This document shows, one piece after another, positions 20,744 to 51,710 of a stretch of 64,000 nt of DNA. The stretch comes from Pyrobaculum neutrophilum V24Sta (GTDB lineage: Archaea > Thermoproteota > Thermoprotei > Thermoproteales > Thermoproteaceae): NCBI RefSeq assembly GCF_000019805.1, contig NC_010525.1:1662618-1726617 (forward strand). Reading direction: 5' to 3'. The notes below the pieces were generated by a model. That model saw only the letters and a program-made list of their open reading frames with translations, was not told where the DNA came from and did not search any database. Within the stretch, counting starts at the first letter, position 1. Every line of letters starts with the position of its first letter. The position numbers and the translations under genes were made by a program.

Positions 20744-22825
20744 CTAGAGAAGCATCAGCCGCCTCAGCTCCTCCACCCTCCTCTTGTACAGGAGCGTGCC
20801 GCCGCACCTCACCTCGAACACGTCGCCGTGCGCCTCCCCCACGGCGACGCCCGGCCCCTCCTCGCCGGCCGCGACGAATCTTCCGTTGGACTCGCTGAAG
20901 AGGAGGAAATCCAACCTGCCGACGTCGGAGGGGGCCCTACAGACGTCTACAGTTGCCCCAACTCCGCTGTTTACGGCCATCTTAGCCAGCGCCGCCGCCA
21001 GCCCCCCCACGCCCACGTCTGTGGCCCCCGTCAGCCTCCCCAGCCAGCTCTGGACCACGTCGACTATCTTCCTCTCGGCGCCGTAGTCCACGGCGGGGGG
21101 CCTCCCGGCCACCACCCCATGCACCCTCTTGAGGTACTCGCTTCCCCCCACCTCCCCCCTTGTGACTCCCCAGACGAATATCCTATCGCCTTCGCGCCAC
21201 ATCGCTCTGTTGGCCTTAGACACGTCGTCTATTCTGCCCAACACTACAACGGCGACGGTGGGCTTCACCGGCCGGCCCATGTACTCGTTGTACAGGCTCA
21301 CCTTCCCCCCCACTATCGGCACCTCCAGCTCGGCGGCCGCCTCCCTAAGGCCTTGCACGGCTTGGACGAACTGCCAGTAGACCCGCGGCCTCTCGGGGCT
21401 CCCCACGTTTATCGAGTCCACGGCGGCGAGCGGGACTCCGCCGACTACGGCGACGTTTCTATAGGCTTTTACAAAGGCGTTGGCGGCCCCCAGCCTCGGG
21501 TCGAGGAAGGTGTACCTCGGGTTGGCGTCCCCCTTCACCACCAGGCCCAGCTGCCCGCGTTGGTAGAGCTTCAACACGGCTGCGTCGCCCTCCCCGGGCT
21601 TCACCGCCGTTTTAACCCCCACGTCGAAGTCGAACCGCATATATATGGACTCCTTCTTCGCCACGTTGGGCGAGGAGAGGACTAGATCCAGCGCCTTCTC
21701 CAGAGGCGGCTCGGGGAGCTGGGGCAACTCCGGCGGTTGATAAGGCTCCTGAGGCCAGAGAACCTCCGGGGCCCCGTCTGCGAGAGAGATGGGGATGTCC
21801 ACAACCCTCTCCCCCCTCCACATCACCCACACCCTCCCGCCCTCTACGAAGCGGCCGGGGATGGAGTAGGGCACCTCGTACCTCCTCAATGCCGCCTCGA
21901 GACAGGGCAGGTCCTGTGGGGAAACGACGAAGATGAGCCGCTCCTGGGTCTCGCTTATGAGCAACTCCTCGGGGGCGGCGGCCCTGTCTCGCACATGTAG
22001 CTTGTCTAGGTGGAACTCGATCCCCAGGGAAAACCAGCTGGACAGCTCGGCGAGAGCCGTGGCCAGCCCCCCGCCCCCCAGGTCCTTTATGAACTTTACA
22101 CACCTCCCCGCCTCCCTCACCACGTCTATCAGCTTCTTCCCCATCAGGGGGTCCGCCACCTGGACAGCGCCGAGGTCCTCGCCCCCCTCCAGGGTCTTGC
22201 TGGCGAAGGCGGAGCCGCCGAGCCCGCTTCTGTCTGCCCCAAGTCCCGCCACCACGAGGTAGTCCCCGGGCGCCACGCCCCCCCTCGGCACGGCCTCCGC
22301 CTCAACCACCCCCACGCAGGTGGCGAGGACTATGGGGGTGTAGGTGAAATCCTCGTCGAACCACGTCTCGCCGCCCACCACGGGAACCCCAACCCTGTTG
22401 CCGTAGTCGGAGATGCCCTTCACCACGTTGGAGAATATCCACCTGGCGTGGGGATCCTCCGGAGGGCCGAAGTGTAGGTTGACGAGGAGGGCCACCGGCG
22501 TTGCCCCAACGGTTAGGATATCCCGGATTATCCCGCCGACGCCGGTAGCCGCCCCGTTGTAGGGATCCACCGCGCTGGGGTGGTTATGGGACTCTATCTT
22601 GAAGCTGACGTAGAGGCCGGGCGCCACCTCCACAAGAGGGGCGTCCGTCCCCCTCCCCCTGACCACCCACGGCGCGGAGCCTGGGAGCTCCCTGAGCCAC
22701 CTCCTTGTGGATTTGTAGGAGCAGTGCTCAGACCAGTGGGAGGTGAAGAAGGCGAGCTCAGCCGCCGTGGGCTCCCGCCCCAGCCCCCTACGTATAAGCT
22801 CCAGCTCCTGCCGCGTTAAGGCCAT
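20744..22825 (-). CDS. purL: FGAM synthase, large subunit
   Basis: A 693-aa protein, the small-type PurL that works with PurQ and PurS. Motifs: [19 protein letters not shown] near the start, [38 protein letters not shown], and the second-half [16 protein letters not shown] 22825 lies about 25 nt after a CTTTTATAG box. It heads a purL-purF unit; purN-folD follow with their own promoter. Confidence 0.97.
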
Positions 22826-30031: not shown

Positions 30032-30535
30032 GTGTTCACCTACTGGCAAAGGAGGGACGACCCACTTAGCCGGTGCATCGAGGAGGTGGTCTCCAGCGCC
30101 GGCGGGGGGGAGGACAGATGCCTACTGGCGGCCGCCGAGTACCTCTGCCGGAAGAGAGCAGGCGAGGCCACCTCCATGGACAAAATCGCGGCGAAATACG
30201 GCGTCTCCCTCCTCTGCGTCTACAGGAAATACAGCGGCCTCTTCCAGGTCGGCATCCGCTACCCCAGAAACCGCGTCGAGCAACTCCTAGAGCAGGTGAG
30301 GCAGAGGTACGGCCCCGCCGTCGCGGAGGAGGTGGAGTCCCTCTACGCCGTCCTCAAATCAAGGGGCGCCCTAGACGGCCTTAAGCCCGAGGGCGTCGTG
30401 GCGGCGTTGCTCTACTACGCCGCGAAAAAACACGGACTTCGCTACGACTCCCACAGGGCTGCTGAGGAGTTCGGCGTACATCCGGAGACCGTCGAGAAAA
30501 ACATCGTGCTCTTCCAGTGGTACCTACAGCGCTAG
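30032..30535 (+). CDS. TFB-like protein of two cyclin repeats
   Basis: A 167-aa protein with two helical repeats. The first centres on AAAEYLCRKRAG and MDKIAAKYGVSLLCVYRKY. The second is VAALLYYAAKKHGLRYDSHRAAEEFGVHPETVEKN. Both resemble the cyclin-fold repeats of transcription factor B with their helix-turn-helix ends. The N-terminal zinc ribbon and B-finger of TFB are absent. It may bind a BRE/TATA complex or act as another DNA-binding factor. GTG 30032 is about 24 nt after TATAAAAAA (30006-30014). Confidence 0.6.
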   Translation: MFTYWQRRDDPLSRCIEEVVSSAGGGEDRCLLAAAEYLCRKRAGEATSMDKIAAKYGVSLLCVYRKYSGLFQVGIRYPRNRVEQLLEQVRQRYGPAVAEEVESLYAVLKSRGALDGLKPEGVVAALLYYAAKKHGLRYDSHRAAEEFGVHPETVEKNIVLFQWYLQR

Positions 30536-31713
30536 GGCTTAACCACATGCCCTATGAAGTAGATCGTGCCGTCTCTCCGATCCGCCAAGACGAAGAGGAA
30601 GGGCCTGTCTATTACCACCTCCATGCCTCCAACCTTAGCACAAACGGGCACAAATACGACGGCAGTGGCGGCTGTTGCTACAACACCTTTTTCATCAGCT
30701 TTTATGTACGCGCCGTGGAAAACTTCGTCTATATAAATCCTGATAGGCGACATCCGGGTGAAGTTTGCTCTGGTTTTGTCAAATGCTGAGCGTATGCCTA
30801 TGTCGATTAATACCTTTTTGAGAGAGTCTTTAAACTCTGCGGTAAATAGAGGCATCGTTACGGCGACGATCTCGTCCGGCAATTCGGTGATGTCTCTCTT
30901 CAACTTCTCATAGGTCAAGCCTTTTACATAGTCCTCAAGCGACTTTGGCATTATGACGTACATAGCTACATCTGTATTTTCAAACCGGAGCTCCACCACC
31001 GTGAGATCGGCAGAGACGCGCCCCCTGAGCGAGGGGACGCAAGACCCAAGGTCAAGCTTCATAAACTCCACCGGGCCTACCCCCTGGAATTCTCTCTTCC
31101 CAATACGCCCAAACTGGAGCGGCCACCAACTACCGTTGAAAAACAGAGCTGAAGTCAATACAACGCGTATATCCTGGCTACGCGGGTAGTCAGTAGGGAT
31201 CAAGTCCTTTACGTATCCCCTGGTCTTTTCCTCTATCCATCTGTTTATCTCGACCAGCGCGGAGCGCTCCGCGAAATCCACCCGCCTCAGCTCCGCCCCT
31301 AGACAAGACAGCTCCCGCTCGTACTCCTCCCTCAGCGGGAATCCCAGTTGCACCCACGCGGCCACCGCCTCCTCGACCCCCCGCCCAGCCTGAGCCAAGG
31401 CGCAGACGTCGTCGCCGAAGCCGAACACCCTCCCGATCTCCTCCCTAGTCTCCCCAGCCGCGCCCGCGTAGGCCATGGCAAAGGCTTTATACACGGAATA
31501 CGGCGAGAGGACAAGGTTTTCGCGAAGTCTCTCCAAGGCTATTCTCTTATAGAAACTGACGGCGAAGTCGCCATAGCTACCGCTCTCCAGAGGCGCAGGA
31601 GCAGATGTGTGAGACGTGGGAGGAGAGTGCGTGGACGCCTCCTTAAGAGACACGATGAAGATCAGCAACACTACCAAAGCCAACGTAACCGGTAGCAGAG
31701 CCCACAGCCTCAT
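30532..31713 (-). CDS. Membrane-anchored serpin
   Basis: A 393-aa protein. Residues about 5-22 form a signal anchor, followed by a Ser/Pro/Thr-rich linker and then a full serpin domain: FAVSFYKRIA, NLVLSPYSVYKAFAMAYAGA, VVLTSALFFNGSWWP, and the end PFLFVLADRRDGTIYFIGHV. The reactive-centre hinge KGVVATAATAVVF is rich in small residues, as in inhibitory serpins, so it should trap a protease outside the cell. Serpins are rare in archaea; one is known from Pyrobaculum (aeropin). A GGAGGT sits about 8 nt before ATG. A TGTAC palindrome flanks its TATA box. Confidence 0.93.
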   Translation of the reverse strand: MRLWALLPVTLALVVLLIFIVSLKEASTHSPPTSHTSAPAPLESGSYGDFAVSFYKRIALERLRENLVLSPYSVYKAFAMAYAGAAGETREEIGRVFGFGDDVCALAQAGRGVEEAVAAWVQLGFPLREEYERELSCLGAELRRVDFAERSALVEINRWIEEKTRGYVKDLIPTDYPRSQDIRVVLTSALFFNGSWWPLQFGRIGKREFQGVGPVEFMKLDLGSCVPSLRGRVSADLTVVELRFENTDVAMYVIMPKSLEDYVKGLTYEKLKRDITELPDEIVAVTMPLFTAEFKDSLKKVLIDIGIRSAFDKTRANFTRMSPIRIYIDEVFHGAYIKADEKGVVATAATAVVFVPVCAKVGGMEVVIDRPFLFVLADRRDGTIYFIGHVVKP

Positions 31714-31745
31714 GACAGGAACCTCCTTTTAGCTTTTAAACCTGA

Positions 31746-31760
31746 TGTACTGGCAGTACA
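31746..31760. promoter_or_regulatory. Candidate operator, serpin side (TGTAC-N5-GTACA)
   Basis: A perfect inverted repeat, TGTAC TGGCA GTACA. Its edge is about 6 bp upstream of the serpin TATA box (TTTAAA at 31735-31740, reverse strand), over the expected BRE. The second copy is at 31931-31945. Confidence 0.6.
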
Positions 31761-31828
31761 TACACCTGCCTTATCCCACGTGGGTTATATCCCGCGGCCC
31801 AGCGGCGGGAGCCGCCTCAGCGCGTAGT

Positions 31829-31839
31829 CCCCCCCCCCC
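31829..31839. repeat. 11-base C homopolymer
   Basis: A run of 11 C residues lies in the intergenic region between the divergent serpin and membrane-protein genes. Long G/C runs were reported to vary in length in Pyrobaculum aerophilum. The other bases between 31761 and 31930 are GC-rich with no visible gene. Confidence 0.85.
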
Positions 31840-31930
31840 GGCGGTTTTTCCTAAGTCCTCGGAGGGGGCCGCGGGAGAGGCGTCCGCTTAGAGGTCGGCC
31901 GCTGTCTTCCCCTGGGGGCCGCCGCGTGGA

Positions 31931-31945
31931 TGTACAGTCGGTACA
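31931..31945. promoter_or_regulatory. Candidate operator, membrane-protein side (TGTAC-N5-GTACA)
   Basis: TGTAC AGTCG GTACA, sharing both 5-bp arms with the site at 31746-31760. It ends about 5 bp upstream of the TTTATATA box (31951-31958) of the rightward operon, the same relative position as on the serpin side. Confidence 0.6.
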
Positions 31946-31983
31946 TCACATTTATATAGCGGTTGCCGGCGAAGTATGGCGGG

Positions 31984-32583
31984 ATGAAGAGGCTGGTCGC
32001 GGCTCTGGCGATCTCCACGGCGGCTGTCGCCCTGCTGATACTTCAGTTGTTGCCTTGGTTTGTTCACCACGGCGAGCCGGCGGCGTTTGAGCTACTCGCC
32101 TTTAGTAATGGTAGTTCTACGCCGGCCGCCTCCCCATACAGCCAACAGGAGACCTCCCCCGTGCCGCACATCATCGCCTCGGCGTCGTCAAACCAGACGA
32201 TTATCTACGACAACGCAAGCTTGTACAACCTCACGGCTGTCGCGCTATCCAACACCTCGTTCCTCAACGGGTTCGGGGCCTCCTACTACGGCGCCTTCTC
32301 CGTAGCGCCTGTCCCTCCGCCTTGGGCGGTCGCGCTGGGAGGGGCCGGGGTTGTCCTGTACGGCTACGGCCTCTACCTATCTCTCTGCCGCGGGCCCCTC
32401 TGCAGGTGGAGGAGGTTCAAGGCCCTTCGCCCCCTCTCGGCGGCGGCGGTGGCCACGTCGCTGGCTCTGCTCTACGCCTCTCCCCTCTACCTCGCCCTCT
32501 CCATCCCCGGCGCCTGGGGCATCGCCCACTACTACAGGGCGAGGAGGAGGCTGGCCGCATGGCTAAGTTCGACCTTGACGTAG
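31984..32583 (+). CDS. Exported membrane protein with glycosylation-rich loop
   Basis: A 199-aa protein. An N-terminal signal/anchor helix (residues about 4-24) is followed by a roughly 85-residue outer segment rich in Ser, Thr, Asn and Pro, holding several N-X-S/T sequons (NGS, NQT, NAS, NLT, NTS). Three further hydrophobic stretches follow, with a Cys/Arg cytoplasmic loop CRGPLCRWRR. ATG 31984 lies about 28 nt after TTTATATA. I do not recognise the family. It is the first gene of a two-gene operon with the winged-helix protein, and shares a palindrome with the serpin. Confidence 0.6.
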   Translation: MKRLVAALAISTAAVALLILQLLPWFVHHGEPAAFELLAFSNGSSTPAASPYSQQETSPVPHIIASASSNQTIIYDNASLYNLTAVALSNTSFLNGFGASYYGAFSVAPVPPPWAVALGGAGVVLYGYGLYLSLCRGPLCRWRRFKALRPLSAAAVATSLALLYASPLYLALSIPGAWGIAHYYRARRRLAAWLSSTLT

Positions 32584-32795
32584 TCGCCAGAATCCTCCTC
32601 CTGCTGCTAAGGGGCCCCATGGGGAGGACCGCACTCTACATGAGGACCAAGCTCAACTACCCGAGATACCTGGAGTATCTGGAGTACCTAAGGGAGAGGG
32701 GCCTAATCGCCGAGCGAGACGGCGTAGTGACGCTGACCGAAAAAGGAGTAGAGGTGGCCAAAGCCCTAGACAAGGCGCTAGGCGAGCTACTGTAG
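32559..32795 (+). CDS. Small winged-helix DNA-binding protein
   Basis: 78 aa from ATG 32559, overlapping the membrane-protein gene by 25 bp. The pattern is a helix (DVVARILLLLL), a helix-turn-helix (TALYMRTKLNYPRYLEYLEYL), then a wing ERDGVVTLTEKGVEVAKAL. This is the compact PadR/MarR-like winged-helix layout common in crenarchaea. Coupling to the membrane gene makes it the obvious candidate regulator of the two TGTAC palindromes; that link is inferred. Nothing is visible in the following 214 bp except the next promoter. Confidence 0.72.
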   Translation: MAKFDLDVVARILLLLLRGPMGRTALYMRTKLNYPRYLEYLEYLRERGLIAERDGVVTLTEKGVEVAKALDKALGELL

Positions 32796-51515: not shown

Positions 51516-51666
51516 ACCTCAGCGCGAGCTCTCCTAGGAGCCTCGCGAGGTGGGGCGCGCTGAGCCTAAGCTTGTCTACCGCAGTTCTAACGTCCTCGTT
51601 GGGAGAGACGCCGTATCTCTGTAGCATATAGGCGTGAGGCCCCAACACAGTATACACCGACGCCAT
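51505..51666 (-). CDS. 53-aa hypothetical protein
   Basis: A small open frame starting at ATG 51666, 25 nt after a TTTTTTAAA box (51686-51694). The sequence is helical (GVSPNEDVRTAVDKLRLSAP and HLARLLGELALRF), with no Cys and no membrane segment. The promoter spacing and codon pattern support a real gene. Function unknown. It ends by overlapping the zinc ribbon gene, tail to tail. Confidence 0.5.
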   Translation of the reverse strand: MASVYTVLGPHAYMLQRYGVSPNEDVRTAVDKLRLSAPHLARLLGELALRFSQ

Positions 51667-51710
51667 GTACACGGCGTATATCCATTTTAAAAAATGCTCC
51701 GTAGCGCCGT

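Follow-up and report, generated by a model that had tools for sequence, protein, structure and literature searches.

Introduction

Sso10a proteins are described as a family of chromatin proteins, of which Sso10a1 and Sso10a2 are reported to show no apparent sequence specificity in their action on DNA (PMC4941522). Transcription control at the membrane is represented in Sulfolobus by ArnR and ArnR1, membrane-bound one-component activators with an HTH domain (PMC13286277). Two further reports associate binding sites upstream of BRE/TATA with activation in the TrmB-type, Ptr2, TFB-RF1 and EarA systems (PMC4158304, PMC5512572). The serpin of Pyrobaculum neutrophilum, Pnserpin, is an active inhibitor at 20-100 C and inhibits serine proteases covalently (PMC5297747). 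Its gene lies in the window analysed here, a stretch of 64,000 nucleotides of the P. neutrophilum V24Sta genome, and is divergent from an operon encoding a membrane protein and a winged-helix (wHTH) protein. A sequence-only reading of the window had proposed that one regulator, most naturally the winged-helix protein, controls both units through a palindrome found at both promoters, and had called the ensemble a surface protease-defence module.

Layout of the locus

The serpin gene (30532..31713, minus strand) encodes a 393-amino-acid protein with an N-terminal hydrophobic anchor, published as Pnserpin (PMC5297747); it matches PF00079 with 241.5 bits (cut-off 27) and is the single match in this genome in a search for serpins. 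Its TATA box, TTTAAAAG (31733..31740, minus strand), was read from the sequence 27 nt 5' of the ATG, and its position is kept in relatives. On the other strand, a TATA box TTTATATA (31951..31958, plus strand), likewise read from the sequence, precedes the gene of a 199-amino-acid membrane protein (31984..32583, plus strand) with an N-terminal transmembrane segment, a sequon-rich outer region and more C-terminal hydrophobic segments, its topology being judged by hydrophobicity alone; this protein has no family match in Pfam or NCBIfam. The start of the 78-amino-acid wHTH gene (32559..32795, plus strand) overlaps the membrane ORF by 25 nt. The arrangement first proposed, an anchored serpin divergent from a membrane gene that overlaps a winged-helix gene, is confirmed. 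Beside the serpin, a 167-amino-acid ORF (30032-30535, plus strand) gives a weak match to the TFIIB repeat (PF00382), just under the cut-off.

Both copies of TGTAC-N5-GTACA stand exactly where they had been placed, at 31746-31760 (TGTACTGGCAGTACA) and 31931-31945 (TGTACAGTCGGTACA), and the gap to the TATA box, initially given as about 5-6 bp, is exactly 5 bp at both promoters: the serpin strand reads ..GTACA-TCAGG-TTTAAAAG and the membrane gene strand ..GTACA-TCACA-TTTATATA. Operator 1 is a perfect 17-bp palindrome, ATGTACTGGCAGTACAT (31745..31761), which five other genomes also keep at their serpin. Operator 2, ATGTAC-AGTCG-GTACAT (31930..31946), has perfect 6-bp outer arms. Seven further genomes keep it at their membrane-wHTH operon; in one of these its equivalent fronts the first gene of the operon, Beta_propel.

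The exact pattern occurs nine times in the 1,769,823-bp genome, against once for the reversed control pattern. At the density of the exact pattern, the 270-bp divergent spacer should hold about 0.001 copies; it holds two, so that the pair is not due to chance. Six of the nine exact copies lie inside long coding frames, namely the third exact copy of the window (21280-21294) and five elsewhere. The promoter-type layout, with TCA-N2-TATA at fixed spacing, is found only three times in the genome and never in the control; it fronts the serpin, the membrane-wHTH operon and a frameshifted exported S1-type protease gene 205 kb away. A fourth, weak site in the window (51666-51693) is a two-mismatch look-alike (HFLKWIYAVYMAS..) within an open frame and was rejected as a promoter site; frames similar to this one are also present in relatives.

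Conservation of the operators

The comparison set comprised 19 genomes of the family, labelled G000 (this genome) onward, G006 being Pyrobaculum sp. WP30; as these genomes are related, co-occurrence counts are not independent. Serpin homologues occur in 8 of the 19, all in one genus, and the membrane gene in eight, namely this genome and seven relatives, with the 25-nt membrane/wHTH overlap identical in all eight. Beside TATA, the site is kept as ATGTACT-GNC-AGTACAT in six other Pyrobaculum genomes and in one of a sister genus. The membrane-wHTH operon carries it in 8/8 genomes (G000, G001, G002, G003, G004, G006, G009 and G016); in G016 the gene order is Beta_propel, membrane, wHTH, and the site stands in front of Beta_propel. 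The serpin promoter has it in G000, G002, G003, G004, G006 and G009, the weakest case being G002 with three arm mismatches. The serpin is divergent in G000 and G004 and lies on the same strand downstream of wHTH in the other four, and in all six genomes the serpin and the membrane operon each keep their own palindrome beside TATA despite this rearrangement. No operator was found at the G001 serpin, and a relic at the G005 serpin was too weak to claim; the serpins of both genomes appear to run on from an upstream reading frame (WELSWENETVRLYQTAIKRSYGELL..), without a promoter or operator of their own.

Alignment of 28 promoters gave A-TGTACT-GNC-AGTACA-TYA-NN-TATA, with a fixed 5-bp distance between operator and TATA and flanks of about 0.2 bits per position. 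Since the search pattern preset TGTAC/GTACA and TCA, the unbiased gain is the conservation at A-1, T5 and A9 and, more weakly, at G6/C8. An independent scan of orthologous promoters recovered the sites of the serpin and of the membrane operon as well.

A frequent palindrome unlinked to these genes, or arms left unconserved in relatives, would have spoken against the initial proposal; the promoter-type site proved rare, and the arms are kept. Because of these two results, and because relatives retain the site at the serpin and at the membrane gene even when the serpin is turned the other way, control of both units by one shared regulator is strongly supported.

Composition of the regulon

We extended the regulon by pattern searches across the family and by reading the downstream genes. 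Beta_propel (PF09826) carries the site in G001, G002, G003, G006, G009 and G016, which are all six regulator-bearing genomes that have Beta_propel. A DUF4349 gene has it in G002 and G003, and the same site is present in G009; a protein of 185 amino acids with one transmembrane segment has it in G001, G003, G006 and G009, and a broken S49-like gene in G003. Another site, near a trypsin-family gene of G009, lies several hundred bp upstream and is uncertain. Most regulon products look exported or membrane-anchored, judging by their N-terminal hydrophobic segments. The scope of the proposed defence module was too narrow, as across genomes the regulon also includes exported S1-type proteases, Beta_propel, DUF4349, the 185-amino-acid protein and the S49-like gene. 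It is an exported-protein regulon around the serpin and proteases, marked by one palindrome; in P. neutrophilum, a broken protease gene joins the serpin and the regulator pair to make up the set.

The third promoter-type copy of P. neutrophilum (G000:C1:1489888-1489902) fronts an ORF that reads as a signal peptide and pro-region; behind it, in other frames, comes a serine-protease-like domain that has the motifs TADHC and GDSGAP. From these motifs the target (G000:C1:1489936-1491384) reads as an exported S1-type protease; with at least three frame changes, an intact gene is ruled out, and two pieces of it gave no significant match in Pfam. Three homologues in G004, truncated or broken, still have the site, in some form with at most two or three mismatches. 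In G000 as in G004 the serpin gene is intact, whereas the protease homologues have decayed in both. As the third target is broken in P. neutrophilum, its present-day relevance may lie in relatives. We also considered PnCHT, the tested target of Pnserpin, as a co-regulated gene. PF00089 matches the genome only once, in an HtrA-like gene at 1656074 with no promoter-type site nearby, and PnCHT is probably this gene (G000:C1:1656074-1656526), not the operator-linked protease; if so, the protease tested with Pnserpin would be HtrA-type.

Candidate regulator

The 78-amino-acid protein passes the gathering cut-off of HTH_45 (PF14947; 43.9 bits, cut-off 25.5) and falls below that of the NCBIfam Sso10a family (NF053610; 47.3 bits, cut-off 60), and we therefore call it Sso10a-like and not a member of Sso10a. 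Its best PDB profile match is Sso10a (E 2.4e-7; Sso10a1 1r7j, Sso10a2 4hw0). The AF2 model (pLDDT 94.9) has a winged helix and a C-terminal helix and superposes on 1r7j with a TM-score of 0.82; MarR/ArsR-type and AspA folds match the model about as well as Sso10a. For this wHTH group, the conserved palindromes would argue against non-specific DNA binding.

A close wHTH orthologue (64-99% identity) is present in exactly G000, G001, G002, G003, G004, G006, G009 and G016, all with the site at their own operon, and of the remaining genomes, the seven with a completeness of 90% or more have no TGTACT-type promoter site with up to one mismatch. This co-occurrence is partly trivial, since promoter and operon are lost together. 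The more distant G012, whose wHTH is a diverged one only, has two perfect sites fronting genes of exported proteins, divergent from its membrane-wHTH pair. A scan of contigs found relatives of the wHTH in one Pyrobaculum (WP30) and in two distant MAGs.

Two genomes in which no close orthologue was found hold altered sites. At the promoter of the 185-amino-acid protein, G005 reads cagtactgcta|aagtttttaaa, compared with cagtactgctaGTACATCaagtatttaaa in G003, and the right half-site is gone. In G007 (93% complete), TGTACTCTG-GTATATCAACTTTTTAAC stands before Beta_propel; here the spacer has lost 1 bp and one arm base is substituted. Co-occurrence, these decayed sites and the palindromes of paralogous pairs described below lend good comparative support to the initial nomination of the 78-amino-acid protein, and we consider this candidate likely to be the binder of the palindromes.

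Paralogous pairs

A second class of membrane-wHTH pairs (44-49% identity, same overlap) is present in G001, G003, G005 and G009. Its palindrome, TCTACTTTAAGTAGA, has the same geometry relative to TATA and occurs at its own promoter and at that of an exported protein encoded next to it, about 154 amino acids long; exact TCTACTTTAAGTAGA beside TATA is found in exactly the four genomes that bear this class, and the pair's own copy in G005 is one base longer. Another membrane-wHTH pair, in G016, has CATACTTTGAGTATG. The core common to the palindrome classes is TACT-N3-AGTA. In the protein alignment, residue 36 of the recognition helix (34-46) is Arg with TGTACT arms and Ser with TCTACT or CATACT arms; it may set specificity, a hypothesis drawn from few classes.

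Pairs outside these classes were also seen. Four loci have further membrane-wHTH pairs adjoining exported proteins that end in TLTLYYQ-like motifs, with related palindromes. No such palindrome was found at class-C pairs, nor at a second membrane-wHTH pair of P. neutrophilum (G000:C1:1499934-1500146).

These observations would fit a family of archaeal signalling pairs, in which a multi-TM protein is translationally coupled to a Sso10a-like wHTH, and which has been duplicated and diversified, each pair recognising a separate NNTACT-N3-AGTANN palindrome beside the BRE and governing exported proteins, with a recognition helix that may set specificity and a Pyrobaculum class that controls the serpin and exported proteases. 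We give this generalisation an even chance. It predicts that members of the Sso10a-like group are sequence-specific regulators tied to membrane proteins, although the family is described as one of chromatin proteins, and natural specificity variants would make the DNA-reading code directly testable.

Proposed mechanism and alternative explanations

We favour, with a probability of about 0.65, a single regulon with a wHTH dimer as activator and the membrane protein as its controller. The 78-amino-acid wHTH would most likely bind the operators as a dimer, reading ATGTACT-N3-AGTACAT, and this dimer, placed beside the BRE, would most likely recruit TFB/TBP and so activate transcription. Besides its own operon, the targets of this dimer would be the serpin and, taking all genomes together, exported protease genes and several proteins that are exported or anchored in the membrane. 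The 199-amino-acid protein would most likely sense something at the cell surface and adjust wHTH activity accordingly; such modulation of the wHTH is probable, and a signal linked to the state of the envelope or to proteolysis is about as likely as not.

The sign of regulation is the point at which this activator scheme meets its closest rival, which keeps the same regulon and regulator and makes the wHTH a repressor that blocks TFB beside the BRE and comes off once the membrane protein has sensed a signal. The palindrome centre lies 13 bp upstream of the first TATA base, with the last A of the palindrome at -6, touching the BRE, so that a steric block of TFB is possible; autorepression is also common among regulator pairs. 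In the TrmB-type, TFB-RF1, Ptr2 and EarA systems, however, a site directly upstream of BRE/TATA is associated with activation, and five of the seven orthologous promoters that have no operator carry AAA in their BRE, as if bypassing an activator, which also speaks against repression. Weak BREs as proof of activation were discarded: compared with a crude background set of 31 promoters, operator promoters did not show unusually weak BREs, a result that suits a repressor. For this reason activation is only favoured; we hold it to be somewhat likely as the effect on the targets, and the repressor version to be rather unlikely.

Two other explanations would separate the wHTH or the palindromes from the regulon. 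If an unlinked regulator owned the palindrome, the membrane-wHTH operon would be merely one target and the wHTH would do a different job, as could be expected from the chromatin role of Sso10a relatives and from the sites that G012 has without a close orthologue. G012, however, also has a diverged pair adjoining its sites, the set of genomes with the orthologue is precisely the set in which the sites are conserved, and the promoters of paralogous pairs each bear a distinct palindrome; an unlinked owner is therefore quite improbable. Scarcely credible is the idea of functionless palindromes arising by chance or from repeats: although most exact genome matches (6/9) are in coding genes and look-alikes (GTACATCCANTTTAAAAA) recur in the genus, with a window example at 51666 in an open frame, this would not account for the fixed TATA spacing, the conservation at orthologous promoters and the low information content of the flanks.

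For the role of serpins in archaea, co-regulation with exported proteases and a surface-linked pair leads to a concrete hypothesis, the control of extracellular proteolysis. If the family of signalling pairs outlined above is real, its Pyrobaculum class gives the archaeal serpin a regulatory context.

Comparison with known systems

Full-text literature searches, incomplete in coverage, returned no description of this regulon, of the pairing of a Sso10a-like protein with a membrane protein, or of archaeal serpin regulation; the Pnserpin study covers biochemistry, and gene regulation is absent from its outline (PMC5297747). The wHTH shares sequence family likeness and fold with Sso10a and differs from it in being coupled to a membrane protein and tied to specific palindromes. 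In EarA, TFB-RF1, the ara-box factor and TrmBL1, the binding site is located equally directly upstream of BRE/TATA, while the site sequences differ and the passages on them describe no membrane partner, unlike the pair studied here. ArnR and ArnR1 likewise exert archaeal membrane-linked HTH control, there with one polypeptide and here with two genes that share 25 nt. We would class the layout as a variant of membrane-linked transcription control.
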